Positions 1,515 to 63,930 of a stretch of 64,000 bases of DNA are shown here, one piece after another. The notes under the pieces were generated by a model. That model did no database searches and was not told the DNA's origin. It saw nothing but the letters and a program-made list of their open reading frames with translations. Position 1 is the stretch's first letter. Every line of letters starts with the position of its first letter. This stretch comes from Siphonodentalium dalli (lineage: Eukaryota > Mollusca > Scaphopoda > Gadilida > Siphonodentaliidae). The position numbers were made by a program, and so were the translations under genes. The stretch is taken from NCBI GenBank assembly GCA_032622095.1, contig CP136061.1:134377587-134441586 (forward strand), given 5' to 3'.

Positions 1515-3789
1515 TTATGGCGGTACGTATGGAGGGGGGTTTCGATATGCTGGTTGCACATGTTTTGGCTGCTTATTGTTCCCTGACGTCGTCACTGGGG
1601 GTGGAGGTTGATATAATGGTGACGTGGCGTCATCGAGTTCGTGTTCCTCAAACTGATCTCTTGGCTCAGTAGGTGGAGTAGACGGAGCACTCTCGCTCGA
1701 CCCCCGTTTGTACACCGGAGGAGGCAAGGGCGGCTTCTCATCATCCATGATGAGTGGCTTTGATGAGTCATTTGGCTTCTCATCCAATTCATCAGCGAAA
1801 ATAACAGGCACGCCCTTATTGTTGAATGTATGCTGATCTTCCAATGACATCTTGCCTTTCCTCTTCTTTCGATAGAGAATACAAGCGATAACTAAAGCCA
1901 ACAATAGAATCGCGATTATAACTACTGCAGGAACAACAGTCGTGATCCAAATTTCATCATCACTTGAATCCTTTGACTTGTCAACCTTACTTCCTGTGTC
2001 AGCAGTTGCCGAGCCGTCTGTTTTTGGCAGAACATCTGGTTTTTTCAGGGACTGGTTCTGGATTTTCCACTGAAGGTTCAGGTGTTGTTGCTGGCTGACT
2101 GGTGTCTCGAGATGGGAAGTCTGTTTCAAGCAAACATACGCCACCTGGTGTAGACTTGGCAGATTTGATGATAAATGGATGAAGAGCTTTCTTCATGCCT
2201 TCATTGATTGTACCATCTTCATAAATAGCTTTGTTAACTATTGCATTAATTTCAACCAAAGAGCATTGGTCTGTCGGGAGACTGCTATTAGACCAGGCGT
2301 AGATGACGGATCCAGCTGCCAACCTGTTCACATGAACATGATATGGATGTTTCCCATCACCATAGTAACGCGAAAGTTTTGAGCTTAGTCTCAAACGATT
2401 TTCAAAATCTGACATGAAATCATCATAATCATGGTCAATCGTAACACTCAGCTCATGGGAGTATTCTTTAAGTTCATCAGGGTCAGCAATAACATCAATG
2501 GCGAATGACTGTGACACAGTGAATCCATCTGTGTCCATGGCAACAAGCGTGAATGTATAATGTCCGATATCAGAAGCCATCGGCATAGCATTCATATTTT
2601 GAAGCTTTGAGTCAAATTGCAACCAGAATTCGCTTGGAATAACATCTTTTGTATACCTGAACAAACTTAGTTTGAGATTCCTAGCATTCCCATCTTCACA
2701 GTCACTGAATGCATGTTTTGAAATTTTTTGTCTATAATATTTCCCAATGGTGAATTTTTGGTCAGGAATGTTATCATCAACTTCAGGCGAGTTTCCAAAT
2801 CCTGTACAAGGTTCCACTGGGTAAAGCTTACTGTCAGTAGGTTCAAGCGTCGTAACTTTTGTTGGATCACTGTCGATATCGGTCATCTCGTCGATTGGTT
2901 TGCTAGTCATGATGGTTGGCTTCGTCGGTAGTATCTCTGTTTTTGTTTTTGAATCCGTTATGTGAACCTGAGTAGTAGTTTTTTCCGTTGGCAGCATTAC
3001 GTTATCAGTTTTCATTGAGGGCTCGTGTGTTTCTGTTGGCTGAATAATCATACTGGTCTCCATGCTTGGAACATTTCTTGTCATCGTATCCATGACAACC
3101 TCAGTGATAACTTTAGTTGGAGGTGTCTTTTCCATAGATGGTGTTGCTGTTTGATGCACAGCACGTCTCTTTCTAGTTTTCTCCACCTGAAATCTTGTAT
3201 TTGTGACCTGCCAACCCAAAATTGGATGGCCAACTGATTTTGCCATATCGCCGCTTCCGCTGTTAGTTTCAACATTCTGAAGAATTGCCATGTGATCGGG
3301 TTCAACTTTCCCGCATCCAACGAGCCAGCTCATAAAGGCGCCAGAATGTTGCGGCTCTTTGGAATTTCCAGGACCCGCAACTAAAGCGGAACTATCAAAC
3401 ATGGATTTATCACCAATCGGAAGAAGCTGCAACATTTCATGAGCCAAACTCAGATGTGACTCAAAATTCTTTATGAGATTTAGTTTCTCCAGTGGGTGGA
3501 GTTTTTCTAGATCGGCATCTACGATAACTGTGACGACAGTTTGTGGTTCTTGTCGTTTGCATCGGACAGTTTGTGGAGACCTGCTATTAACTGGCAGGTA
3601 TTTCATTGTCGACTCCTTTGTGACGGTGATTGTGAATATGTCCTCAGCCTGAGAATTGTCTTTGCCGACAGCCGTGACCTTCAGTGTGTGTGGCCCCAGA
3701 TTGTTTGGTCCTGGAACACCACTAATAACTCTGGTTGTCTCATCATAGGCAAGCCAACTTGGAAAGTCTAGAGAATTTGGTGCAGAGAT
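1515..3789 (-). CDS. DAG1: Dystroglycan, large coding exon 2 (single-base frameshift at 2040-2045)
   Basis: Dystroglycan is the matrix receptor of the dystrophin-glycoprotein complex: alpha binds laminin-type ligands through matriglycan, beta spans the membrane and binds dystrophin. Acceptor AG at 3790-3791 (minus ...TTCCAG|ATC) is in frame with exon 1. With the frame restored, the protein is 840 aa (human about 895). Numbering in that frame: rest of the first cadherin-like domain 84-144; the N-terminal alpha second subdomain with conserved V-D-A-D-L, AGPGN and GW motifs about 145-285; furin-type RKRR 289-292; Thr/Pro-rich mucin-like region about 293-410, shorter than in mammals; second cadherin-like domain about 424-519; SEA-like region with the alpha/beta cleavage-type G576-S577; transmembrane helix about 698-720; basic RKKRKGK 723-729; GVPVIFADELDE; PPVY 773-776; C-terminal PPPY 834-837. 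Reading 3789 downward, the frame closes at 1999 because of A6; the other frame continues to TAA at 1515-1517. Identity is near certain; whether the frameshift is real is unknown. Confidence 0.96.
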
Positions 3790-3891
3790 CTGGAAGTAGA
3801 AAGAATATTGGATTTAAAAATAAAGGTAAGAATAATTAGAATAAAAGGTTGGCGACCACACGTCCCCTGAAAAAAGATGGTTTTCTTTTAA

Positions 3892-7435: not shown

Positions 7436-7931
7436 TTGCACAGTGCCAACAGATTTCAAACTCCATTGTGGAATATAATATATTAGACAGATCTGTCATA
7501 AAGTCTTGTACAGTTAGAAAACTTACTCTACCATTCCGAATAATTTGACATATTGAATTTGGCCAAATACAGGGAGGGTGTGATTTGGAAGAAGTGCAAA
7601 ATTCAGAGTTGCATGGTCACCCCTGAAAGAACTGCTAGTCACGTCCGTCACTTATTGGGTTGCAGAAGATTAACAGCATTTATGTGTTGTATTAAATGTG
7701 ATAGCTAGCGCTCCAGCTAATTGTTCTGGTCTGAACTTTTGAATCAACTGACTTTCCGAGTGAAGAGAAGGGCTCATTTTTCGAAGTGGTAATATCACTG
7801 ACTTCAAAAGTCTTTACAAGGCATCTAAAGTTTATAAACATTGTCAGTCATTTTGACATTTTGGCATATGTCAAAAATGAGAATTACTGGGTATAATTCG
7901 AGATTTAAAATCACCATGAGCATGCAATTAA

Positions 7932-14918: not shown

Positions 14919-15936
14919 CAGGGGCGTAGCAAGCAAATTTTATTGGGGGGGTATAACCATTCATCGTGAAGGGAGAGAGCACGAGAGGGGGTCGGCCCCT
15001 CTCGATGGGGGGGGGGGGGTCCGGGGGTCCTCCCCAGGAAAAATTTTCTGACATTGGAAGCTTAAAGTGGCTCTCTGGTGGCTTCTGACCCATCTGACAT
15101 TGTTTTCCCACCCACTACATTATCATAGATTAGATCAACATTCTTATCATTCATCAATTGTAATTTCATAAAATGGTAGGCCATTGAAAGTGTAATGAAC
15201 AAATAGGTATATGGGAATTCATGTTTGTGTTATTATCTAGTCTTTAATGTTGTGAAATTACTTCCATAACTGGGATCAGATATTCAGAAAGTAAATATGT
15301 CACAAACAACCATGAGAAAGTAGACTACTTGGATACACACATCACCATGGGTATGTATCGTGGGGTATTTATCGTGTGGGTATGAATAGTGTGGGTATGT
15401 ATCGTGGGTATGTATAGTGGGTATGTATAGTGGGTATGTATCGTGGGGGTATGTATAGTGGGGGTATGTATAGCGTGGTTATGTATAGTGGTGGTATGTA
15501 TTGTGTGAGTATGTATAGTGTGGGTAAGTATAGTGTGGGTATGTATAATGTGGGTATGTATAATGTGGGTACGTATAGTGTGGGTATTGTATAGCGTGGG
15601 TATGTATAGTGGTGGTATATATTGTGTGGGTATGTATCGTGTGGGTATGTATAGTGTGGCTATGTATAGTGTGGGTATGTATAATGTGGGTATGCATAGT
15701 GTGAGTATGTATAGTGTTGGTATGTATAGTATGGGTATGTATCGTTTGGGTATGTATAGTGTGTGTATGTATCATGGAGGTATGTATGGTGTGGGTATGT
15801 ATCGTGGGGGTGTGCATTGCCGCGATCTTCGGCGATACTTCATTAATTTGCCAAATATTTTTACTAACCTTTGGAAAATATTGGGGGGGCATACGGTATA
15901 GATACCCTTGCCCCCCCCCCAGTTCCTACGCCCCTG
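14919..15936. mobile_element. hAT-like non-autonomous element carrying a minisatellite
   Basis: Ends CAGGGGCGTAGC and CTACGCCCCTG form an 11-bp terminal inverted repeat. Identical 8-bp flanks ATTTGATG (14911-14918, 15937-15944) are the target duplication. This combination is typical of hAT transposons. No transposase frame. Its right part holds the 15-bp tandem array. Confidence 0.88.
15349..15812. repeat. 15-bp minisatellite, about 30 units
   Basis: Consensus GTGTGGGTATGTATA with point variants and some shortened units. The period is a multiple of three, so both strands show spurious open frames reading H-T-I-H-T or G-M-Y-S-V repeats. Entirely inside the hAT-like element. Confidence 0.93.
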
Positions 15937-49099: not shown

Positions 49100-49480
49100 T
49101 GCAAACTTACCAAGATGTGGTCAGTTAGTGACAACATACATTGTAGGTCAGCGAAGGAGAACAAATTATTTGGTAGGAGAACAAACTATTGTTCCAAGTA
49201 AAGACCGTCCAGGAATAATTTGGCGAAGAGACTGAGCCATTGGTAGAAGAACAAACAATTCTCCGTCCTATATAAAGACATCCAGAATATTCTGTGAATC
49301 TTGTTTTACATGTATGTCACTAAATCCAGAGTATGTTCCTGGAGACCTGGAATACTGTGCATGAATATCTGACAATAAACTGCATGATCAGGATATGTAT
49401 CAGTTAATCTTTTTGATCGGACACAGACAATCGGGACAAAAGGCAACTTCCACACTCACTAAAACCAAACCGTGCAGTAC
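49100..49480 (-). repeat. Array cassette U1 (exon-like, two decayed 60-bp units)
   Basis: Minus-strand cassette ending CATCTTG|GTAAGT (donor at 49110-49109). Contains the T-Y-S-G-F-S-D segment and about two degenerate 60-bp units with a stop after DVFI. Flank 48940-49040 repeats at 49920-50020. Confidence 0.65.
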
Positions 49481-50035
49481 TAAACATCAATGTGTCACCA
49501 AGTGAAGTAAGACGCAAACAAAGTATATCCATGCGACCACGTCGATACTTGAAAAATGCTTGAAAACAAGAAAAGCTCTTCATACCCAAGTTATTCTTGG
49601 CACAGAACTTATATCTATCGAACTTATATATCCTACAAGTTTCCTATGGATACATTCATTTATGTATATATGGCTATATTAAACATCTGTTAATGATGCG
49701 ATGACTATACAGACAGAAAATACTTGAAAAAGAGAAAAGCTATTCTTTGCACAGAACTTATATCTATCGAACAGAATTATTTCCTGGCATTTTTGGATGT
49801 TTTGTCCCCATTGGGGTATAGTTGTTCATACTCAGGGGTGGATAGAGCATTTGGAGCATCCCTTTGTTGTAGACTGACACCTATGTAATCATGTAAATTT
49901 TACATTGGGAAGTTAACTCTTGCCTCCCCACCTCCCTTGAGTACAACTAGCCTGTTTTTTCTGTACCACTATCCAGGGACACAAATTTTTAAATAAATTA
50001 ACTGATATAAATCACCATAACATCATGAAATGTGT

Positions 50036-50800
50036 GACAGTAAACTTACCAAGATGTGGTCGGTTAGGGTCAACAGAGGCCAGCGAAGGAGAACAAATTA
50101 TTTGGTAGGAGAACAAACAATTCTCCCACCTAAAGACATCCACGGCAGAGTGACTGAGTCGTCAGTAGGAGAACAAACAAGTTTCCCTCCTAAAGACATC
50201 CACGGCAGAGATACTGAGTCGTCAGTAGGAGAACAAACAATTCTCCCTCCTAAAGACATCCACGGTAGAGTGACTGAGCCATTGGTAGGAGAACAAACAA
50301 TTCTCCCTCCTAAAGACATCCACAGTAGAGTGACTGAGTCATTGCTAGGAAAACAAACAATTCTCCCTCCTAAAGACATCCACGGTAGAGTGACTGAGCC
50401 ATTGCTAGGAAAACAAATAATTCTCCCTCCTAAAGACATCCACGGCGGAGTGACTGAGCCATTGGTAGGAGAGCAAACTATTCTCCCTCCTAAAGACATC
50501 CACGGCGGAGTGACTGAGCCATTGGTAGGAGGAGAACAAACAATTCTCCCTCCTAAAGACATCCACGGCGGAGTGACTGAGCCATTGGTAGGAGGAGAAC
50601 AAACAATTCTCCCTCCTAAAGACATCCAGGATATCCTGTGAATCTTGTTTTACATGTATGTCACTAAATTCGGAGTATGTTCCTGGAGACCTGGAATACT
50701 GTGCATGAATGTCAATAAACTTATCAGGATAATCTGATATCGGTTATAACTTTTTGAACCAACACAATCAGGACACAAGGCAACACCCATGCACACACTA
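50036..50800 (-). repeat. Array cassette U2 with expanded 60-bp repeat
   Basis: Same layout as U1: donor CATCTTG|GTAAGT (exon end 50050), T-Y-S-E-F-S-D-I-H-V segment upstream. Relative to U3, a net 2-base difference before TGG shifts the frame between the upstream segment and the repeated W-M-S-L-G-G motif. Confidence 0.7.
50098..50632 (-). repeat. 60-bp in-frame minisatellite, nine units
   Basis: Nine units of CCTAAAGACATCCAC-containing repeat; two of the last units carry an extra GGA (63 bp). On the minus strand each unit reads about WMSLGGRIVCSPTNGSVTLP with no stop. Because the period is divisible by three, plus-strand frames are open too, so openness alone is not evidence of coding. Confidence 0.92.
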
Positions 50801-51142
50801 AAAACCAAACATGCTTTATATATATATACTACTGCAATGCGACAGATTTCCTGAGCTACCTTAAACCACTAGACAAATGTGAGACATGTGACTGCTCAAC
50901 GCAACCACTGAAAAAAAGGAAAAAGTCAGCTACTTCAGATAAATACCAGTGTTTAATAGAGATAACAGAGGTTAACCTGACAAGACAAAATATCTAACGC
51001 ATTTGAATTATAATGAGATAAGAGTCGAGTGTATCCTTATGCAATGAAATGCACTAAGATCTAAACAAGAAGGAGTATATGATCTGAACAAATATTAAAG
51101 TGTGGCTGCAAAGAACTATGAATAATTGATTTATTTGAAACT

Positions 51143-51468
51143 AACCACAATACAATGGTGCCCGTCATAAATACAGTATAAGAATAACAAGATACCGAAA
51201 CAATTTAGTATTAAAGGTTGAGCTGACAACATAACATGATAGTAAGGTTGTTGTCGACCCAGTAAACCACAAAGGTCAACTTTAAAACCTGCCCTCAAAA
51301 TTATTGCTAATTGCACTGGAGTGAACCACAGAAGGGAACCACAACAGTTCACGACCCATTGAACCATAGATGTGAACCACAAAAATCAAGCTACCTTTAT
51401 ACACAGAGTAGTGAACCACAAACAAATAAAGGTGTGAACCACAACTGGCTACGGCCCAGTGAACCACA
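51143..51468. promoter_or_regulatory. Homotypic cluster of AACCACA motifs (Runx-type)
   Basis: AACCACA (TGTGGTT on the minus strand) at 51265, 51324, 51337, 51375, 51414, 51437 and 51462, plus one at 51143 and a one-base variant at 51362. Most sit in GTGAACCACA. TGTGGT is the Runx-domain core site. Function is inference; it may equally be a decayed tandem repeat. Confidence 0.4.
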
Positions 51469-51660
51469 AACATCAGGTTATGTACAAAATAAATAGAATA
51501 TTATGCATTATTGTTGCAGTGTGTTGGGTATATGATGTTCCGATTTCACTCCCCTCGAGGTCTATCCTCTGGTGAATTGTTCACTGGGAATTTCTCCATA
51601 AAGGAGAGATGACCTCGCTTCATTCAGCAGGGAAACTCTCCCAAGTTGGAGGGAATATCA

Positions 51661-51799
51661 GGAAATATAAGCAGATGTCAGCTAATAGAAGTGCAGACAG
51701 ATTCCCATGCATTCGTAGAAAATGTTCAGATAATAAGTTCAACAAACGATTTAACCTGAGGCATAACTACTTGTCAATGAGTATTTAGTATAGAAAGGG
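51661..51799. repeat. Family F MITE, right part
   Basis: GTTCAGATAATAAGTTC, then TAGTATAGAAAGGG before TTAA (51800-51803). Confidence 0.7.
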
Positions 51800-51838
51800 T
51801 TAATTATTTATGCACATTTAATTAGAAATTCATGTTAA

Positions 51839-52223
51839 CCCTTTCATGACTGGTTCTTCTTGAATTTTTGCAAAAACCCTGTGCCAATGCATTCTCTTAT
51901 ATATTAGAGTTGCCCATATGGCACCTCACATATATAAGAGAATGCATAGGCCTAGCAATATTTACCTTGGTCTTGTAAGTCAGTGCATTCTCTTATATAT
52001 GCGAGGCTCCCATAGAGCACCTCACATATATAAGAGAATGCATTGGCCTTACAATATTCACCTTGATCTTGTAAGCCAGTGCATTCTCTTATATATGCAT
52101 AGGTTCCCTATGGGAGACTCGCATATATAGAGAATGCGAGTCTCCCATAGACTTGCATATATAGAGAATGCACTGGCACAGGATCTTTATGGCTGCACCA
52201 GCGCAGCTCCCATCATTGAAGGG
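51839..52223. repeat. Family B MITE, extended with three or more hairpins
   Basis: Left end CCCTTTCATGACTGG after TTAA (51835-51838). Four TATATATG-type half-sites and repeated CCTA/TTACAATATT linkers make it longer than the usual 254 bp. Right end CCATCATTGAAGGG. Confidence 0.8.
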
Positions 52224-52430
52224 TTACAAACTATCTAATACGGAATTGTGAATAAAATATGGAAAGAGATAATCCACATTAACTTCCCTAAAATAAGTTT
52301 TGAAAGTTATATATGTAAGTCTGACAAACTCAAATTGTAAAACAAAATTTAGACGATAAATGAAAATGACGACATGAAATATGTGATACAACGTCCAGTT
52401 CAATATCTGAGAAAAAAACACAGTGCTTCT

Positions 52431-52740
52431 GTCACAAACTTACCCAGAAGTGGCCAGTCGGAGGTAAACATGCAATGTCGGCAGTGTGACTTAATCGTCG
52501 GTCGGAGCGCAAACAATTCTCCCTCCTAATGATTTCCAGGAATAATTCTGTGAATTTCGATTTACTTGTACGTCACTAAATCCAGAATATGTGCCTGTGG
52601 ACCTGGTATCCTGTGCATGAATGTCAATGAACTCGTCAGGGTAGGTATCGGTTAAATCCTGCTGGTCAGGCGCAGACATTCCAAACACAAAAAGACAACT
52701 TTCAAAGAAAGTCAGTGTCATCAAATACACACACCAGTGT
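52431..52740 (-). repeat. Array cassette U3 (best preserved frame)
   Basis: Minus-strand cassette with donor-like CTGG|GTAAGT (exon end 52444). The conserved intron-side sequence (CCAGTTCAATATCTGAG) is also found beside U1, U5, U7, U9 and U10. The candidate frame it contains is listed separately. Confidence 0.7.
52491..52721 (-). CDS. Candidate 76-aa secreted peptide in cassette U3, unknown family
   Basis: ATG at 52721, TAA at 52491-52493. The first ~18 residues (MTLTFFESCLFVFGMSAP) could be a signal peptide. Then come T-Y-P-D-E-F-I-D-I and a second T-Y-S-G-F-S-D-V-Q-V segment, suggesting an internal duplication. The end is NYSWKSLGGRIVCAPTDD. The same C-terminal motif and adjacent stop recur in cassettes U4-U7 and U9 with mostly synonymous changes. 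A donor-like site lies downstream of the stop, so it could be one exon of a longer transcript or have a 3'UTR intron. I recognise no family. Confidence 0.35.
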   Translation of the reverse strand: MTLTFFESCLFVFGMSAPDQQDLTDTYPDEFIDIHAQDTRSTGTYSGFSDVQVNRNSQNYSWKSLGGRIVCAPTDD

Positions 52741-52860
52741 TAGATGGTGTAAACACTATGAGACATGATATGCAAATGAATTTGAATTATAACATGAAGT
52801 ATATCCATATCCCTATGCCAATTAGATCACCAAGAGGAAGTCAGTAGACCATGCAATTAA

Positions 52861-53103
52861 CCCTTTGAGTGCCAGGGGCCGATATTATCGGCCCTAAACC
52901 TACACAATAAGTCTGTTAAAGAATATAATAAAATATATTAAAATTGTAAAAAAAATTTAAAAAAAAATTTAAAAAAAAAATTGTTAAGCCAATGCATTCT
53001 CTTATATATGCGAGGCGACCTATGGTCGACTCGCATATATAAGAGAATGCATTGGCACAGGGTATATGGGTTGATACAAAAATCGGACCTGGCACTCAAA
53101 GGG
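52861..53103. repeat. Family C TTAA MITE, complete
   Basis: TTAA at 52857-52860 and 53104-53107. Ends CCCTTTGAGTGCCAGGGGCC / ACCTGGCACTCAAAGGG. Internal poly-A/T and one TATATATGCGAG hairpin. Confidence 0.87.
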
Positions 53104-53982
53104 TTAAAAAGTTGTTCCCAGCATATACATGCAGCTGGAGCTGGATCTTTAATATATAATACCAATGAGAAATCTGTCCAGGTAACAATCGGATATGATT
53201 CACGGTGTCGTCAGTGGGAAATTGTGTCAGTCACTGATATATTTTACCTGTGAGTGCAGGTGTGTGTGAGATCAAAGTTGCTATGTAGTACAGTTCTAAA
53301 CACCGCCTACTATTTCACCTTTTATCAATACTGCAAACCCCGGGCAGGCAGTGGGCCTGTTTCAACAATCAGTTTTGAATGTGATATCACTCAATATAGT
53401 GCACATATAAAGCAAGACAAATAACAATATTTTAAACACCTTGACCTTGTAAGCCATGCAGTGCATTCTCTTATAGATGTGAAACTCCCTATTGGAGACT
53501 CAAATATATAGAAGAATGCACTGGCACAGGGTTGTTAATGCTGCACCAGTGCAGACACTTATTCATTTTATCTTGATAACAACAGAAGAGAATATTCATA
53601 CAGAGTGCATATGTATTTAACTAATGACCTTATTACCTCAATCTTCAGATAGCTAATATTCTCCACAGTGCCTTATAGACAAACACTTCTCAGAAAAGAA
53701 TTTCCTATACCATGTCAATGTGCACAGCACATTGCTATACCCCACCCATGCTTCAAGTCACATTCAAACAAGAGCATGTCTAAAGTGTGGCAAAATAAGC
53801 TCGTGGTACATTAATGCCCCAAATATTCGACTCCTTAACCACAGCAGAATTATGGGTAATTTTTCAGGGTTTAGGCGGAAATATGGTTTGTTGCCATTCA
53901 TCGGAAAGCTCTCATTGGATAACTTGAATAGATAATCCAATTCCAAATATCTGTGATAAAATAAAATCATGATTTTGTCACA

Positions 53983-54170
53983 AACTAACCTTGATGTGGC
54001 TCGCAGGCCGAATTATATCACATTGTCGGAAGGAGCACAAACTATTCTTCCACCTAAAGACATCCAGGAATTCTGTATGTCAACTAACCCATCAGGATAG
54101 GTACAAGAAGAATCCTCCAGCATGTCAGGCATTACGACAAAAGATAACTTCCATATGCAAATTAAAATTT
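53983..54170 (-). repeat. Array cassette U4
   Basis: Donor CATCAAG|GTTAGT (exon end 53990). Frame: M-P-D-M-L-E-D-S-S-C-T-Y-P-D-G-L-V-D-I-Q, then NSWMSLGGRIVCAPSDNVI and stop. Confidence 0.65.
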
Positions 54171-54552
54171 CTTACTGATCCTGCTGTTGACAAAGATATG
54201 TCACAGGTTCACAAATCAAACTTATCTGGAAGATTATAAACGAAAACACAAACCAATCACACACACATACTTCAAGACACTCACACTTTACAGTAGCTAT
54301 CATGCCTATGTCCATGAACCATAACGAAGCAGTGCGACACTTGTGAAGAAGAATGCATATCTGGCTATATCCACTGTGTGGGAGGAATTCAGGAACTCTT
54401 ACATCGGAAGTCGTTCTGTCACCCATGAACCATAACGAAGCAGTGCGACGCTTGTGAAGAAGAATGCATATCTTGCTATATCCACTGTGTAGGAACTCAG
54501 GAAATATGTCATGTGGGGTATAAGAATATATATAATCATGCTTGCCCATATA

Positions 54553-54765
54553 CAGTAATGCCCAAAATAATCGACTCCTTAACCACAGCAGAATTATGGG
54601 TAATTTTTCAGGATTTAGTTGGAAACATGGCTTGTTGCCATTCATCAGAAAGCTCTCACTGAGTGCTTTCCGATGAATGGCAACGAGCCATATTTCTGAC
54701 TAAATCCCGAAAAGTTACCCATTATTCTGCTGTGGTTAAGGAGTCGATTATTTAGGGCATTACTG
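54553..54765. repeat. Family A MITE with a perfect empty site in the duplicate
   Basis: 213 bp, TA at 54551-54552 and 54766-54767, CAGTAATGCCC/GGGCATTACTG. The homologous place in copy 2 (about 57164-57172) reads CATATAATTG: one TA and no element. Confidence 0.95.
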
Positions 54766-55239
54766 TAATTGACCCAATGAAATTAAATATCTACTGTCAT
54801 GAGATTCTGTTCATTTTAAGCGGACATGGCTCATTTATCCTTAAATTAATAATACGCAACTCACTTTATGATATTGTTACCCTGATCAGTAAACTTTCTT
54901 GTTTTATAACTTGAAACTAATATATCCATGTATAGTAGGAGAATGAATAACACCTTTGAATTAAAATATGAGATAGGTCGCACAGTATATCCATATTCCA
55001 TATCCAATGACAAGAACAAAGATCTAAAGAAAGAGTATGATCTGGATAAAAAAGGTGTGTCTGCCTGCACAACTATTAAGTGGGTGCAAATGGCATCTAT
55101 GCAAGATAATTTTAACTGCAAATATGGAGATACATGTACACTTCACTTATTTGCAACGTCATACATGAACTAAACGGCATGAAATGTGTTTGAATAGATA
55201 ATCCAGTTCCAGATATCTGATTTAAAAAACTCTTGGTGT

Positions 55240-55450
55240 TGTCACAAACTAACCTTGACATGGCTGGCAGGTGGAGCGACTCAGTCATCGGAAGGAGCGA
55301 CTCAGTCATCGGAAGGAGCACAAACTATTCTTCCACCTAAAGACATCCAGGAATTCTGTATGTCAACTAACCCATCAGGATAGGTACAGGTTGAATCCTC
55401 CATCATGTCAGGCATTATGACAAAAGTTAACTTTCATACGCACATTAAAA
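55240..55450 (-). repeat. Array cassette U5
   Basis: Donor GTCAAG|GTTAGT (exon end 55254). Frame M-P-D-M-M-E-D-S-T-C-T-Y-P-D-G, then NSWMSLGGRIVCAPSDD and TGA. A 24-bp segment including that stop is tandemly doubled downstream. Confidence 0.65.
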
Positions 55451-55722
55451 TCTCTCACTGATAATGGTAAAGCATCCAACTTATCTGGGGTATTCTGGAC
55501 AAAAGCAACTACTATGCACGCCCACACAAACTTTACACACATACACAAAGCATTGCACTCTTCCATAATACACAACATTTATGACAATAGGTGATATGGC
55601 AAAGACAAAGTTATTATTAGACATTCAAATCATATGAAGAACGTCTTTACCTTATGAGCAATATTAAGTAATTGATTAAAATATTTAAAGTAGCAGCTAG
55701 TAGTTTAGTATGATTGACATTA

Positions 55723-55832
55723 GATCATGTCATGAACGTCTACTCTGGTTAACGCCCGTATAGATCATATTCCACCAGTTCAGAACCTGGGAACTTTTTG
55801 ATGTTTTGACAGGGAAGATTATAACATTGAAA
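55723..55832. repeat. Family H fragment, left arm
   Basis: Starts GATCATGTCATGAACGTC after TA. Lies in the junction between the two duplicated segments. Confidence 0.7.
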
Positions 55833-55936
55833 AAAACAGTGCTGGTTTAAATATATTTATACGAAGGTGACTTCCATTATTTATTCCTTATTCGATAACT
55901 TTTATATTTAGGTAAAAGAAAGGATGTTATCGGGTG

Positions 55937-57830
55937 TAAACCCCGGACAGGCAGTGGGCCTGTTTCAACAATCAGTTTTGAATGTGATATCACTCAATAT
56001 AGTGCACATATAAAGCAAGACAAATAACAATATTTTAAACACCTTGACCTTGTAAGCCATGCAGTGCATTCTCTTATAGATGTGAAACTCCCTATTGGAG
56101 ACTCAAATATATAGAAGAATGCACTGGCACAGGGTTGTTAATGCTGCACCAGTGCAGACACTTATTCATTTTATCTTGATAACAACAGAAGAGAATATTC
56201 ATACAGAGTGCATATGTATTTAACTAATGACCTTATTACCTCAATCTTCAGATAGCTAATATTCTCCACAGTGCCTTATAGACAAACACTTCTCAGAAAA
56301 GAATTTCCTATCCCATGTCAATGTGCACAGCACATTGCTATACCCCACCCATGCTTCAAGTCACATTCAAACAAGAGCATGTCTAAACTCTAAAGTGTGG
56401 CAAAATAAGCTTGTGGTACATTAATGCCCCAAATATTTGACTCCTTAACCACAGCAGAATTATGGGTAATTTTTCAGGATTTAGGCGGAAATATGGTTTG
56501 TTGCCATTCATCGGAAAGCTCTCATTGGATAACTTGAATAGATAATCCAATTCCAAATATCTGTGATAAAATAAAATCATGATTTTGTCACAAACTAACC
56601 TTGATGTGGCTCGCAGGCCGAATTATATCACATTGTCGGAAGGAGCACAAACTATTCTTCCACCTAAAGACATCCAGGAATTCTGTATGTCAACTAACCC
56701 ATCAGGATAGGTACAGTTTGAATCCTCCATCATGTCAGGCATTATGACAAAAGTTAACTTCCATATGCAAATTAAAATTTCTTACTGATCCTGCTGTTGT
56801 TAGCAAAGATATGTCACAGGTTCACAAATCAAACTTATCTGGACGATGATTAACGAAAACACAAACCAATCACACACACATAATTTAAGACAATCACACT
56901 TTACAGTAGCTATCATGCCTATATGTCCATGAACCATAATGAAGCAGTGCGACACTTGTGAAGAAGAATGCATATCTGGCTATATCACTGTGTGGGAGGA
57001 ATTCAGGAACTCTTACATCGGAAGTTGTTCTGTCACCCATGAACCATAACGAAGCAGTGCGACACTTGTGAAGAAGAATGCATATCTAGCTATATCCACT
57101 GTGTAGGAACTCAGTAAATATATGTCATGTGGGGTATAGGATCATATATAATCATGCTCGCCATATAATTGACCCAATGAAATTTACTGTCTTGAGATTC
57201 TGTTGATTTTAAGTGGACATGGCTCATTTATTCTTAAATTAATAATACGCAACTCACTTTATGATATTGTTACCCTGATCAGTAAACTTTCTAGTTTTAT
57301 AACTTGAAGCTAATATATCCATGTATAGTAGGAGAATGAATAACACCTTTGAATTAAAATATGAGATAGGTCGCACAGTATATCCATATTCCATATCCAA
57401 TGATTTTATCAAAGATCAATACAAAGAGTATCATCTGGAGAAAAAAAAAAGAGATGTGTCTGCCTGCATGACCAAGTGGGTGCAAATGGCATCCATGCAC
57501 AGATAGATTTAACTGTAAATATTAAAGGAGATAAACTTCACTTATTTCCAATGTCATAAGTGAATTAATTGGCATGAAATGTGTTTGAATAGATAATCCA
57601 GTTCCAAATATCTGATAAAAAAACTCCTGGTCTTGTTACAAACTAACCTTGACATGGCTCGCAGATGGAGCGACTCAGTCGTCGGAAGGAGCACAGACTA
57701 TTCTTCCACCTAAAGATATCCAGGAATTTTGTATGTCAACTAACCCATCAGGATAGGTACAGGAAGAATCCTCCATCATGTCATGCATTAATTATGACAA
57801 AAGATAACTTCCATATGCACATTAAAATTT
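55937..57830. repeat. Segmental duplication, copy 2
   Basis: Homologue of 53334-55465 with cassettes U6 (56582-56790, donor end 56600) and U7 (57640-57840, donor end 57648), family B and A fragments (56042-56160, 56419-56525), but no insertion at the 54553-54765 position. Confidence 0.88.
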
Positions 57831-57840
57831 CTTACTGATC
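57640..57840 (-). repeat. Array cassette U7
   Basis: Donor GTCAAG|GTTAGT. Frame ends NSWISLGGRIVCAPSDD and TGA. Against U5 the shared part differs mainly at third positions. Confidence 0.6.
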
Positions 57841-58267
57841 CTGCTGTTAGCAAAGATATGTCACATGTTCAGAATAGCGAGTGACTCCTCCCCCAAAATC
57901 GCAGTACATCAATGTGACCGATGTCAAACTTGTCAACAGCAAGAAAACCTCTGCCCTCATTTGAAACTGGCCTACATTCATATCTGCACCCAGACCTGCA
58001 CTCAAAGAGTCAAGACGGGCAAATATTTAACCTTGACTCACCTTTTCAAATAAGTCTAAATAGTATACCCAGAACAGGAAGTGTAAACATTATCATGTAA
58101 GTTTTTATCTTATTATGTGGAATTGTTTTTCTAATGACCTATATATTTATGGCTCAGCACACCACAAATTAAAGAGGTAATCAACACACCAATCAGGAGT
58201 TTCCTGGATTGTCTCACTTTCGTGCATATTTTGGAGAGTAATCTTTACACATAACTTATGAGATATA

Positions 58268-58410
58268 CAGTAATGCTCTAATTAATCGACCTCTTAACCA
58301 AAGCAGAATTATGGGTAACTTTTCAGGATTTAGTCGGAAATATGGCTTGTTGCCATTCATCGGAAAGCTCTCAGGGAGAGCTTTCCGATGAATGGCAACA
58401 AGCCATATTA
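58268..58410. repeat. Family A MITE, right terminus missing
   Basis: CAGTAATGCTC after TA. Left GACCTCTTAACCAAAGC variant as in 42610-42935; apex AGG; stops at CAAGCCATATT. Confidence 0.85.
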
Positions 58411-58581
58411 CTTTAAAAGTTGTCATTTTCGTTTCGTGGTGCATGAAACATTCAACAAAATACATATTAAAAAATATGACTACCAGTATGCTGATGTCTG
58501 CCAAATGATTGGAATAAACATCTTGATAATGGGCAGTTTGCAGTAACCAATATAGCCATGATTAGAATATTATACAATATT

Positions 58582-59631
58582 CAGTAACGCCCTAAATAAT
58601 CGACCCCTTAACTCGTTTGAGACCTGATTCTTTTGAGAAAACATTACTCACAGACGAGATTGTTTACAGAAATGCTTACTTTTATATAATTTTATAGCAA
58701 TTTATGCATTTATTCAATGTTGGGTCAGACCATTTGCCATGGCAGTTTACTCTGCACGACAACTCATACTATATGGGTGATCACCCGTAGTCTATAAATC
58801 TTCAAGAAATTTTGGGTAGATACCACCAAATTGCGACCGGTTGCCATAGCAACCTATTTTCGGAATTTTTTTTTTTTTGGGGCTGTAATTTTGCTATATG
58901 ACGATATGTTTGCGACATTTTGAATCAAATATAAATGATTTCCGATGTTAAATGATCCAGGAATATTTTGCCTACATCTGAAACTAGCCTTGCTTGAAAA
59001 TCACCCAACACCGACAGAGGGCGCCATTCAAAATGACCACCAAATCCCGTTTTCTAACGTTAAAATGCTTAATTTTATATCATTTTATAGCAATATATGT
59101 GTTAATTTAATGCTGGGTCAGACCATTTTCCATCACAGAATTCTCCACGTGACAACTCACAATATATATATATTGGTGATCATCCGTAGTCTATAAATCT
59201 TCCAAAATTTTTGGGTAGATACCACCAAATTGCGACCAGTTGACATGGTAACCGATTTTCAGAATATTATGTGTTTGGGGGCTGTAATTTCGCTATACGA
59301 CATGTCTGCATGCGACATTTTGAATTAATTAATTTCCAAAGAAATGGGATCCAGGGATACACTTAAATTGCCCCCCCCCCCCCCCCCCCCCCCCCCGCTT
59401 CTTGTTCCTTCCGCTGAAGAGGTCAAGATTCACCTGCCATGGTGATTGCATGCCAACCGAAAACTTAGGCTACCGGGTGACACCATTTTGGAACAATGAC
59501 GTCACTAATCACGGCACGCAACCCCTAAATGACGCCAAAAATAGGTTTGAGAGCCATATTTCCGACTAAATCCTGAGAAGTTACCCATAATTCTGCTGTG
59601 GTTAAGGAGTTGATTATTTAGGACATTACTG
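58582..59631. repeat. Family A termini enclosing ~940 bp of other sequence
   Basis: Left terminus 58582-58611 (CAGTAACGCCC...) and right arm 59551-59631 (...GGACATTACTG, then TA). The interior is unrelated to the usual hairpin and contains a ~270-bp direct repeat (about 58660-58940 and 59060-59330, sharing GGGTAGATACCACCAAATTG) and a long poly-C tract (about 59370-59396). Similar GTTTGAGA sequences flank the interior, so it may be a nested insertion. Confidence 0.7.
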
Positions 59632-59852
59632 TATACTAATTAAGACTATTCAGAGTGTACAATATGCCTTTTGGTACCAAGGTGACCATACAAGTGCCAC
59701 AGACACCACAGATATATAACAATACTTTTAGTGCTAAATACCAGTAATCTGAACCTCTTAACAGTTGATTATATCGGGCATTAATGTAGCAGGACAACTT
59801 AACCAGGGGTGAAAATGCATGGAGAAGGGACCAGAAGGTTAACTCATGTTAA

Positions 59853-59925
59853 CCCTTTCTTTACTAAATTGATTATCCCATTCAATTAAAAAAGTACACC
59901 ATGGAATATGGTATATTATTTATTT
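59853..59925. repeat. Family F left fragment
   Basis: TTAA (59849-59852), then CCCTTTCTTTACTAAATTG. Confidence 0.65.
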
Positions 59926-60104
59926 ATGCTTCCCAACTTCACCTCTGTTCTCTATTTCTCATCCTCTCTCTTCTTCTCTTTCTCTCTCAGAGTCTGTCTC
60001 TCTCTCTCTCTGTGCTGATTGAAAATGGTATTTATTTTCCAGGGACGTATTTATTAAACAGTATCAAGTAAGCTATTCTCTACTTTAGAGCCTTGCCTTC
60101 ACAT

Positions 60105-60620
60105 TGTCATCATGGGTACTGGACCGGATTGTGGGTATGGGAACTGCCGCCCCTGTCCTCTACCAAGAATGGCAAGAAATACCTCACCTGTCAGCTATAA
60201 CAGCATTGTTTTGTTGTCCCAAGAGAAAAGTATAGTTCATTCTGATAGCATAATATAGTTTCTTTGAAATCATCAGTAGAAGAACACACAATTCTCCCTC
60301 CTAAAGACATCCACGATGGAGTGACGGAGTCATGGGTAGAGGAACACACAATTCTCCCTCCTAAAAACATCCATGGCAGAGTGACCGAGTCATTGGTAAG
60401 AGAACAAGCAATTCTCCCTCCTAAAGACATGCAGGATATTCTGTGAATTTTGTTTTACATGTACATGTATGTCACTAAATCCAGAATATGTGCCCAGGGA
60501 TCTAGTATCCTGAGCATGAATGTCAAACTCATCAGGGTAGGTATCGCGGTTAAATCCTGCTGGTCAGACGCATACATTCCAAACACAAAAAGACAACTTT
60601 CAAAGAAAGTAGGTGTCTTC
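60105..60620 (-). repeat. Array cassette U8 with three 60-bp units
   Basis: 60270-60440 holds three 60-bp units, the cassette form expanded to nine in U2. On the minus strand W-M-S-L-G-G frames continue to S-T-D-D-F-K-E-T-I-L and stop just before GCTGACAG|GTGAGG (exon end 60188). 60105-60265 is homologous to 47376-47560. The upstream signal-peptide-like part matches U3 but is frame-shifted. Confidence 0.65.
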
Positions 60621-61027
60621 AAATACTCCACGAGAAAAGATATTCAACTGAATTTGAAATATAATACGAGATAATAGTCATAGTATACCCATATATAGTG
60701 ATTTGAACACAGACTTGAGCTCGTGGGTGCTACCGTTCATACGGCATATATTTTTCTATGCACAGATAGAGCGTTTTATGATGAATGACACACAAAAGAG
60801 AAGTACGGCCCGGAATAGTTACACGAAATACTAGGTGATCTAATTACAACAGAAGAGAATATTCATTCATGTATTTATTCAAATAATGTCTTTCTAGGCT
60901 CTTCAGTTAGCTAAAAATTCTCCACAGAGCCTTATAGACAACAACTGTCAACATGTCAATGTGCATAGCAGTATTCTTTATCTTTATGTTCTTGGCCAGG
61001 TGTATTATACAAAGTTTGTAAAATTAA

Positions 61028-61111
61028 CCTTTTATTTACTATTAAAATGAATTCTCCCATCTGATATAAAAGAACACATTGCAACAGTCTATTATTCATC
61101 TGTAGGAATGT
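61028..61111. repeat. Family F fragment
   Basis: After TTAA (61024-61027): CCTTTTATTTACTATTAAAA, then GAATTCTCCCATCTGATA. Confidence 0.55.
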
Positions 61112-61309
61112 CAACGACATGCCACACCAAGTATTCTGACAACTTTTTTTTACAAAAGACAATAGAATAGCACCCCTTCTGAATTTCTACCCAACCCCCT
61201 GCTCAAGACACCTTCAATCATACCAAAAAATGGTGTATTCTAGGCCCCTTCAGTCAATTATTTAAAAAAAATAAAATAATACGCTAATCATTCTATGATA
61301 TTGTAATCG

Positions 61310-61850
61310 GTAAACTTTCTTGTTTTATAACTTGAAACTAATATATCCATGTATAGTTGGAGAATGAATAACACCTTTGAATTAAAATATGAGATAGGTC
61401 GCACAGTATATCCATATTCCATATCCAATGACAAGAACAAAGATCTAAAGAAAGAGTATGATCTGGATAAAAAAAACAGGTGTGTCTGCTTGCAAGTGGG
61501 TGCAAATGGAATCTATGCAGATAATTTTAAATGTAAATATTAAAGGACTCATACACTTCAATTATTTCCAATGTCATAAGTGAATTAAATGGCATGAAAT
61601 GTGTTTGAATAGATAATCCAGTTCCAAATATCTGATAAAAAAACTCCTGGTCTTGTTACAAACTAACCTTGACATGGCTGGCAGATGGAGCGACTCAGTC
61701 GTCGGAAGGAGCACAGACTATTCTTCCACCTAAAGATATCCAGGAATTTTGTATGTCAACTAACCCATCAGGATAAGTACAGGATGAATCCTCTTGCATG
61801 TCAGGCATTATGACAATTAAAAGATAACTTTCGTACGCACATTAAAATCT
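61310..61850 (-). repeat. Third partial copy of the duplicated segment, with cassette U9
   Basis: 61319-61560 matches 54898-55140 and 57290-57530. Cassette U9 (61655-61850) has donor GTCAAG|GTTAGT (exon end 61668) and frame NSWISLGGRIVCAPSDD followed by TGA. Confidence 0.75.
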
Positions 61851-62240
61851 CTTACTGATTATTGATTATCCTGGAGTCACAACGATAAGTGACTACACAA
61901 GACCAATTAACACACCTGTGATGTATGGAAAGCAGAAAAATTATTTGCTAATAGGAGCCGATATATAGAGTACCGGATATGTACTGGAAATTCTGGAATG
62001 CACAGAAGCAGCAAATTAAAAGATAACTTTTGTACGCACATTAAAATCTCTTACTGATTATTGATTATCCTGGAGTCACAACAATAAGTGACTACACAAG
62101 AACAATTAACACACGTGTGATGTATCACACGTGTGATGTATCACACGTGTGATGTATCGAAAACAGAAAAATTATTTGCTAATAGGAGACGATATATAGA
62201 GTACCGGATATGTCCTGGAATGCACAGAAGCAGCAAATTG
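61815..62240. repeat. Direct repeat pair with a CACGTG-containing tandem run
   Basis: 61815-62010 and 62015-62240 are near-identical (AAGATAACTTTNGTACGCAC through GCACAGAAGCAGCAAATT). In the second copy the palindrome TCACACGTGTGA is amplified in 16-bp steps (62112-62158); the first copy has a single CACACCTGTGATG. Confidence 0.75.
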
Positions 62241-62299
62241 ATGATGATCTTGCGCATGTAAATATGTTGCTTTAGATTTGTATCTTGCCTCACCATGTA

Positions 62300-62600
62300 T
62301 TGTTTCTCCTTTTTTTTTCTTTTTTTTTAATTAAAAATATTTTTTGTATTTTTTTTTTCCTTTACTTGATGTAGATTTTGGTTTTTTTTTCATGTCAATT
62401 TTGTTTTATACCTTTATACCACATTTTTTTAATTACTTCATTGGTTTTTTTTTGGTTTTTTTCTTCTTTCGATTTAATATTTTCTTTTTTCTTGCACTTT
62501 CATGTTTGATTAGAGATTATTTTGTATATCTTTATGTAATTGTGTTAGTTTCCTGTGTTTGTCTGAAACTCTCCATGTATGGAGGAAAGAAATAAATATA
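62300..62600 (+). other. T-rich tract ending in AATAAA
   Basis: Very T-rich for about 170 bp, then unique sequence and AGAAATAAATATATATAGG at about 62588. It could be the 3' end of a non-LTR element or a retroposed transcript, but no reverse transcriptase is visible. The 83-codon Phe-rich frame is compositional. Confidence 0.3.
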
Positions 62601-62734
62601 TATAGGTTAAACCTGCACAGCAAAATGCCAAAGAGGGAATGTTAACCATGTCAAATAAAATTTCTTAGTCTTGGTCTTTAACAGTCATAGATATTCAAAT
62701 AAATAGTTATATTTTTTCCCTGATTGACATTTTA

Positions 62735-63000
62735 TACAGCATGCCACAAATTAAAGAGGTACCAAATGCACCATTTATGAAAGTTTCAGAGATGGTGTCA
62801 CTTATGTAGATTTAGAAGAGTAATCTTTATAGTTTTTAATTCAGTTTTCTAATGACATGTTTATATAGTAATATAACTATACTCAGAACACCACACAAAA
62901 AAGAGGTACTCAACACAACATTCGGGGAAAGTTTTACAGATTATCTCATTTTCATATATTTAGGAGAATCTTTACACATATAACATTTGAGATATCTGTC
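62735..63000. repeat. Two tandem copies of a ~130-bp repeat also at 58125-58260
   Basis: Copies start around CCACAAATTAAAGAGGTA and include AGTAATCTTTA and TCTAATGAC. They are diverged but clearly alignable by eye. Confidence 0.65.
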
Positions 63001-63459
63001 TCTTAACATTTTACTTATTCATTCCTTCAGATAAATTGGGGGTCACTGAATTTTGACTGGCAGAGCATTTAAACCAAGTTCGGGACTCTAACTTTAATTA
63101 CTCTTATTTAAACCAGTGACCCCAATCGATCTGCAAGTCATTCCTTTTAAACACATACCAGTACATTATAATAGAACATTAATAATTTGAACAACTTTTC
63201 AAAACTACAATAACAATTGTCAGTAACAAATTGCTCAATTTCCAACACGTCTCCCAATAACAACATGGAGATGGAGATGGCTCCATATAAGCGCCTGGCG
63301 CTTGATGTCAAATCCTCTTCTCTCTCAGACTTATCATATATATATATTAACATCATTTTGTAAATTGTTGTATAAATATGGGATACTAAAAAAATAAATA
63401 ATGTTTACATCAATAACAATACACAGCGAGAGCATGCACAAATATTAATCTGAATAGAA

Positions 63460-63565
63460 AACGCAGACAGATTCCTATGCATTGGTGGGAAATGTTCAGA
63501 TAATAAGTTCAACAAATGACCTATCCTGAGGGATAACTACTCGTCAATGAGTATTTAGTATAGAA
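63460..63565. repeat. Family F fragment, right part
   Basis: GGTGGGAAATGTTCAGATAA through GAGTATTTAGTATAGAA; GGGTTAA lost. Confidence 0.65.
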
Positions 63566-63728
63566 CATATATATAACTTCCCTAAAATAATTTTTGAAAG
63601 TTATATATGTAAGTCTGATACTCAAATTGTAAAAAAAAATTTAAATGATATAAATGACAATGATGACATGAAATGTGTGTTATGACGTCCAGTTCCATAT
63701 CTGAGAAAAAACACAGTAATACTTTAAC

Positions 63729-63930
63729 AAATTTACCTAGATGCTAGTCGGGAGGGGGTGGGTTGGGGGTTGGGGAGCACAAAGTATTCTCCCTCCTAAA
63801 GACTTCCAGTAATAATTCTGTGAATCTTGATTTACATGCATGTCACTAAATCCAGAATATGTGCCCGGGGACCTCCAAGAGAATGATTTAATGACATTAA
63901 GCATAAACTGACAATGATTCACAGAAAGAG
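63729..63930 (-). repeat. Array cassette U10
   Basis: Donor CTAG|GTAAAT (exon end 63737). Frame T-Y-S-G-F-S-D-M-H-V, then NYYWKSLGGRILCAPQPP. 63565-63730 downstream matches 52270-52440 beside U3. Confidence 0.65.

Follow-up and report, generated by a model that had tools for sequence, protein, structure and literature searches.

The subject of this report is a tandem array of short, putatively coding units in a 64,000-nucleotide stretch of the genome of the scaphopod Siphonodentalium dalli (contig CP136061.1, positions 134377587-134441586 of the forward strand). The complete stretch is hereafter referred to as the window, and its contig as C1. Ten units lie on the minus strand between 49.1 and 63.9 kb of the window, and by similarity the array is one branch of a family that is dispersed throughout the genome. 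The amino acid sequence of this family has clearly been kept by selection, and the family is absent from the libraries searched. Most likely it represents a lineage-restricted micro-protein family coded in a 5' exon. On balance, we lean toward an orphan family of acidic proteins of 37-75 residues, coded in such an exon and shaped by tandem duplication, occasional jumps, and decay.

Listed in Table 1 are the ten units of the array. When up to 11 mismatches were allowed, a 36-nt motif coding for W-x-S-L-G-G-R-I-V-C-A-P was matched 21 times on the minus strand of the window. At the same threshold no matches were found on the plus strand of the window, nor were any observed on either strand with the reversed pattern. 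With up to 12 mismatches, no match to the motif was located in the next 20 kb (L001 and L002). Three of the units contain more than one motif. Intact open reading frames (ORFs), running from an ATG to a stop codon, are present in six units, five of which code for 37 or 39 residues and one for 62. A 1235-bp block (96%) is common to units 5 and 7, a sign of recent local duplication. In unit 9, a Ser codon stands in place of the stop, and as a consequence its nine repeats form a single open frame. An initial annotation of the window had reported at least ten copies of a cassette in the same orientation within 15 kb, most of them beside a donor-like GTAAGT or GTTAGT, and that description of the array is confirmed here.

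Protein searches of the whole genome (2.23 Gb in nine contigs) revealed at least 22 additional exon copies beyond the window, distributed as three on C2, four on C3, five on C4, two on C5, one on C6, two on C7, and five on C8. All of these counts are lower bounds, and a tandem stretch on C7 with ∼8 motif repeats was entered as one copy. The copy at C2:190.757 Mb is 80% identical to the long window copy (unit 8) over 61 residues. An alignment of 18 rows, three of them edited, yielded the consensus TYSDELIDIH ... WFSLNGxIVCSPTDD, in which one glycine and one cysteine are invariant. A more distant locus at C1:113.71 Mb was matched as a target with expectation values (E) of 0.33 and 0.53; when it was employed as the query, all seven of its non-self matches up to E 10 were family exons. 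Two matches on C2 (216.34 and 216.35 Mb, E 5.7) were rejected as members, for they are AT-rich and do not contain the motif. The copies on C3-C5 and C8 have in common a stretch upstream of the ATG. Among the deepest groups little can be aligned beyond the exon, as judged by eye, and no second exon common to these groups by protein similarity was present among the matches listed. Several loci do have another protein-like stretch in common, which resembles the high-copy repeat that follows the C4 copies.

Evidence for selection on the peptide was provided by codon models, which were run either with kappa (the transition/transversion ratio) fixed at 1 or with kappa fitted and the tree fixed. The paired values that follow are given in that order. 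In comparisons between the deep groups, silent sites are almost saturated, with proportions of silent differences (pS) of 0.56-0.91 and of replacement differences (pN) of 0.22-0.43. For the set of 23 family copies, omega (dN/dS) is 0.45/0.50 and twice the difference in log likelihood (2 delta lnL) is 25.3/20.8. Neutrality is thus rejected, as it is for the five short window copies (omega 0.26/0.29, 2 delta lnL 7.2/6.1), for a set in which unit 8 and its relative on C2 are added to these copies (omega 0.33/0.38, 2 delta lnL 12.2/8.7), and for eight copies of the C3-C5 type (omega 0.52/0.57, 2 delta lnL 5.5/4.0). In the seven window units with one motif, pN/pS is 0.13 across the first ten codons of that motif, and the silent count was reached by only 0.0095 of the shuffles. 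In a comparison of two copies from the tryptophan to the stop, the initial annotation had counted eight silent changes against two replacements together with a TGA/TAA switch, a count that fits the copies at 55349 and 52538. Its main inference of selection on the peptide, with some copies broken, is supported, given that omega = 1 is rejected for both the short window copies and the 23-copy set.

The second common feature of the units is a donor-like site, defined in the window by the pattern GGT[AT]A[GA]T at no more than 200 nt from the last motif start. It was observed in nine of the ten units, as GTAAGT in three, GTTAGT in five, and GTAAAT in one; within that distance none was found for the unit at 60.4 kb (unit 3). 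Outside the window, AGGTAAG occurs in 13 of 19 rows, within the ∼110 nt that follow the aligned coding part. Of six window rows none carries AGGTAAG, AGGTTAG being present in five and GGGTAAG in one. The background frequency of AGGTAAG is ∼1 per 10 kb of the DNA examined, with the family copies counted in. A stop codon precedes the donor-like site in all six of the intact window ORFs, in keeping with the initial annotation apart from the serine codon of unit 9, and likewise in L003, L011, L026, L016, L005, and L018. A CAG follows the donor-like GT by 36-39 nt after most of the window units. This short stretch is not regarded as an intron because the spacing is absent at the C2, C8, and C3-C5 copies. 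From the donor-like sites it would appear that the units are spliced.

Several individual copies display repeats of their own. L007 and L010 (C5:225.16 and 220.61 Mb), which are 4.5 Mb apart, are 97.5% identical across 3.1 kb. Around the ORFs of L004, L006, and L009 there is a ∼70-bp repeat of the N-terminal part, and since this length is not a multiple of three, successive repeats fall into different frames. The ORFs of L008 and L019 end in an in-frame 24-bp repeat (NQPPVYIL-like) in three to four copies, immediately before the donor-like site. Just past the ORFs of L011 and L026 (C2:180.24 and 179.17 Mb), a stretch with the donor-like CTGACTAGGTAGGC is tandemly repeated, which results in many donor-like sites in series.

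All 16 of the proteins examined are acidic, with isoelectric points of 4.05-4.45, the lower value presumably being the floor of the program. The mean hydropathy of the first 20 residues is negative in each of the 16, and each contains one to three cysteines, one of which is invariant across the 18 aligned rows. The hydrophilic start and the small number of cysteines speak against an array of secreted cysteine-rich peptides, a possibility considered without a signal-peptide predictor. Searches of Pfam and the PDB with family members, the family profile, and the repeat ORF of unit 9 gave no convincing relative, in agreement with the statement in the initial annotation that no family with this motif was known. 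The best Pfam value for single members was to Chordopox_A35R (E 0.0016, in two of 18 members), and the repeat ORF matched DUF7015 at E 0.0068, below the cut-off. Against the PDB, the best match to the family profile was to WD-40 propellers (E 0.17, 15 residues). In one search the long window copy matched the N-terminal region of beta-tubulin (PDB 6t59) with E = 0.13. The likeness resides in a short TGTYxGxSDxQ-like stretch, which is absent from most family members, and beta-tubulin was not among the six matches to the family profile; a relation was thus rejected. One composite query of IMG/VR returned no relative. Spliced-leader RNA genes were considered as well, and at gathering scores the window matched no Rfam family. 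Given that the searches covered Pfam, the PDB, and IMG/VR and not other animal genomes, the family may be known elsewhere. Judged by titles and the openings of abstracts, nothing close to such arrays was present among the papers listed, which does not imply that the family is unpublished.

If the favored explanation is correct, a working unit would have a promoter, would be transcribed, and would consist of a 5' exon with a complete or nearly complete ORF, ending in a splice donor. Beyond this exon there would be a 3' untranslated region or, at most, the tail of the coding sequence. Having no hydrophobic start, the protein would be expected in the cytosol or nucleus. As to its function, it would most likely be a flexible peptide that binds a partner via two short conserved motifs, TYSDELIDIH and WxSLxGxxVCSPxDD. 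The family would grow as its members are duplicated locally in tandem, as they occasionally move to another chromosome, and as tandem repeats form within the exon; copies would then decay. Orphan gene families in tandem arrays are a known kind of thing.

In the window, the array lies upstream of the 3' exons of a dystroglycan gene (DAG1) and on the same strand. Pfam scans of the minus strand from 3.8 to 46 kb did not recover the 5' exons of this gene, and the array might therefore sit in a dystroglycan intron. Two Pfam matches with E up to 0.5 were observed in that region, both below the cut-offs. One, near 35.8 kb, suggested DNA polymerase nu, a candidate that was rejected since no DNA polymerase A domain was found nearby. 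At C8, no Pfam domain reached the cut-off in 9 kb starting ∼1.6 kb past the last exon or in the parts scanned between units; the same was true for 19.8 kb starting ∼2.1 kb past the C6 exon and for the 4.8 kb directly past a C2 copy. In the downstream scans at five loci, which have gaps and are blind to exons without a Pfam domain, the single domain over the cut-off was a cytosine-5 methylase on C7. It is positioned ∼5 kb downstream of the last family exon, in 9.9 kb scanned from 1.9 kb past that exon, and its motifs are those of what we take to be a TRDMT1/DNMT2-like protein. The unrelated neighbors, dystroglycan on C1 and the TRDMT1-like gene on C7, argue against one shared host gene, with room left by the gaps in the scans. 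Near-perfect palindromic repeats of two families, which by appearance resemble miniature inverted-repeat transposable elements, occur throughout the window and its neighbors (58339-58409 and 52988-53056, for example). Additionally, a 15-bp minisatellite of ∼31 copies spans positions 15348-15811 of the window.

Table 1 Units of the array and neighboring gene features. Coordinates are those of the window unless otherwise noted, and those of the ORFs include the stop codon.
Feature	Location	Strand	First motif start	Description	Donor-like site
Unit 1	63736..63880	minus	63808	5'-truncated, from the RSPGTYSGFSD part; motif WKSLGGRILCAP; 5' part and usual DD-stop lost	GTAAAT at 63736
Unit 2	61667..61808	minus	61742	intact 37-residue ORF, 61695-61808	GTTAGT at 61667
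Unit 3	60276..60600	minus	60433	decayed; frames of N-terminal part and motif differ; three motifs, 60-bp spacing	none found
Unit 4	57647..57788	minus	57722	intact 37-residue ORF, 57675-57788	GTTAGT at 57647
Unit 5	56599..56742	minus	56676	intact 39-residue ORF, end SDNVI, 56623-56742	GTTAGT at 56599
Unit 6	55253..55415	minus	55349	intact 37-residue ORF, 55302-55415	GTTAGT at 55253
Unit 7	53989..54132	minus	54066	intact 39-residue ORF, end SDNVI, 54013-54132	GTTAGT at 53989
Unit 8	52443..52679	minus	52538	intact long 62-residue ORF, 52491-52679	GTAAGT at 52443
Unit 9	50049..50760	minus	50628	N-terminal part in other frame; nine motif repeats of 60 or 63 bp, 183-residue open frame 50098-50649	GTAAGT at 50049
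Unit 10	49110..49470	minus	49280	decayed, frame-broken; two diverged motifs (49280, 49210)	GTAAGT at 49110
Dystroglycan (DAG1) 3' exons	1515-3813	minus		Pfam	
Cytosine-5 methylase exons	L030 ∼3186-3371 and 7509-7673 (C7:116.002 and 116.0065 Mb)			Pfam	

A number of results weigh against the interpretation of the units as 5' exons of a micro-protein family. Four of the ten window units are broken, namely unit 1 and units 3, 9, and 10, where the N-terminal part and the motif are out of frame with each other. For two groups taken alone, omega = 1 was not rejected: the four C8 copies (omega 0.52/0.72, 2 delta lnL 1.7/0.6) and four copies from C2, C6, and C7 (omega 0.65/0.79, 2 delta lnL 1.2/0.4). 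A dN/dS near 1 across all copies, which the initial annotation had named, together with a lack of spliced minus-strand transcripts, as grounds for giving up its interpretation, was not observed. The shuffle test for silent changes gave 0.048 with the window's five short copies, 0.06 with seven from C3-C5, 0.41 with three from C8, and 0.36 with five from C2, C6, and C7. Taken together, the codon models and shuffles clearly show that the peptide is constrained in the family as a whole; they support such constraint in the window and do not show it for each of the subfamilies singly. In the four copies at C8:49.1 Mb and in most of those on C3-C5, the ORF runs into the donor-like site without meeting a stop, such that the protein may continue in an unseen exon. 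The stop met by the unspliced frame in these copies is itself part of the donor-like site (AGG TAA). Because GTAAG also gives the stop, its conservation there is not purely a donor signal. The mixture of open frames and of stops ahead of the donor suggests that the family can do without coding sequence in a second exon. Finally, the gaps in the downstream scans fall right after the last exons (46-49 kb of the window, ∼1.6 kb at C8, 2.1 kb at C6, and 1.9 kb at C7), and the proposed binding via the two motifs is a guess.

The open frames would also fit an arrangement, for which the scan gaps leave room, in which the units are alternative first exons spliced to shared downstream exons of a larger gene. 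Each unit would then contribute a promoter and a short peptide, conserved as an N-terminus or as an upstream ORF. Most units do consist of an exon and a donor-like site, and the location of the array upstream of the dystroglycan 3' exons, on the same strand and with the 5' exons not found, is consistent with such an arrangement. The copies, however, reside on eight contigs (C1-C8) beside unrelated genes, no domain over the cut-off was detected in the scanned parts of C8, C6, C2, and the window, and in the six loci named above, as in every intact window ORF, the stop comes ahead of the donor-like site. We regard shared downstream exons as rather unlikely. A more far-reaching version would have mobile leader exons genome-wide. 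Each would provide any acceptor exon downstream of it with a promoter and with a conserved acidic peptide that serves either as an N-terminal tag or as an upstream ORF. Unrelated genes would then share one module, dystroglycan being tagged by the window array and the TRDMT1-like gene by the C7 copies, a scheme that we consider very improbable.

Decay raises the question of whether the array is simply a dying pseudogene cluster or a non-coding repeat, with the constraint left over from a small number of older, functional copies. In addition to the four broken window units, three of the 22 copies elsewhere (L017, L020, and L027) are visibly broken, and omega is indistinguishable from 1 in two of four groups. 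The three repeats of unit 3 (60.3-60.4 kb) show a pN/pS of 0.79. Among the nine repeats of unit 9 there are six distinct changes over ten codons, three of them silent, and 15% of the shuffles reach that count, such that the shuffle test is not passed. The values of omega for the five short window copies and the pN/pS over the ten motif codons speak against this explanation, which is in our judgment decidedly unlikely. A transposable element might also carry the cassette as a fragment, given that the copies are dispersed over chromosomes, that the C5 pair is nearly identical over 3.1 kb, and that a high-copy repeat follows the C4 copies, the DNA probe giving 4344 first-look candidates. The protein searches, on the other hand, with 21 to 55 candidates each, all of which were scored, returned one modest set of places. 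With 40 of the 4344 candidates scored, the DNA probe detected five places with the exon part, each of them on C4. This test is weak because so few candidates were scored and because known C3 and C5 copies were missed. We give carriage by a transposable element very little credence.

An orphan micro-protein family coded in a 5' exon thus remains the explanation that we prefer. Similarity-based annotation is likely to miss such a family, since the ORFs are mostly shorter than 65 residues, contain no known domain, and frequently stop just before the donor-like site. If the units are translated, they make up a micro-protein family under constraint, in which live and dead copies coexist in one genome. 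Such a family would be useful for understanding the origin, spread, and death of genes of this kind, and the tolerance of a coding exon for tandem repeats inside it. If the exons instead lead other genes, they would represent a novel means of distributing a single peptide module.

With respect to known systems, the array resembles the first-exon clusters of UGT1A and the protocadherins in its tandem units on one strand, most with an exon and a donor-like site. It differs from them in that no shared downstream exon was seen in the parts scanned, the intact window ORFs stop before the donor, and the copies occupy many chromosomes. Its likeness to orphan small-protein families lies in the short ORFs without known domains, the local arrays, the intact copies alongside broken ones, and the constraint on the peptide. 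Unlike in those families, a donor-like site here coincides with the end of the ORF or closely follows it, and in several subfamilies tandem repeats have arisen by amplification of parts of the exon, with the frame kept or broken.

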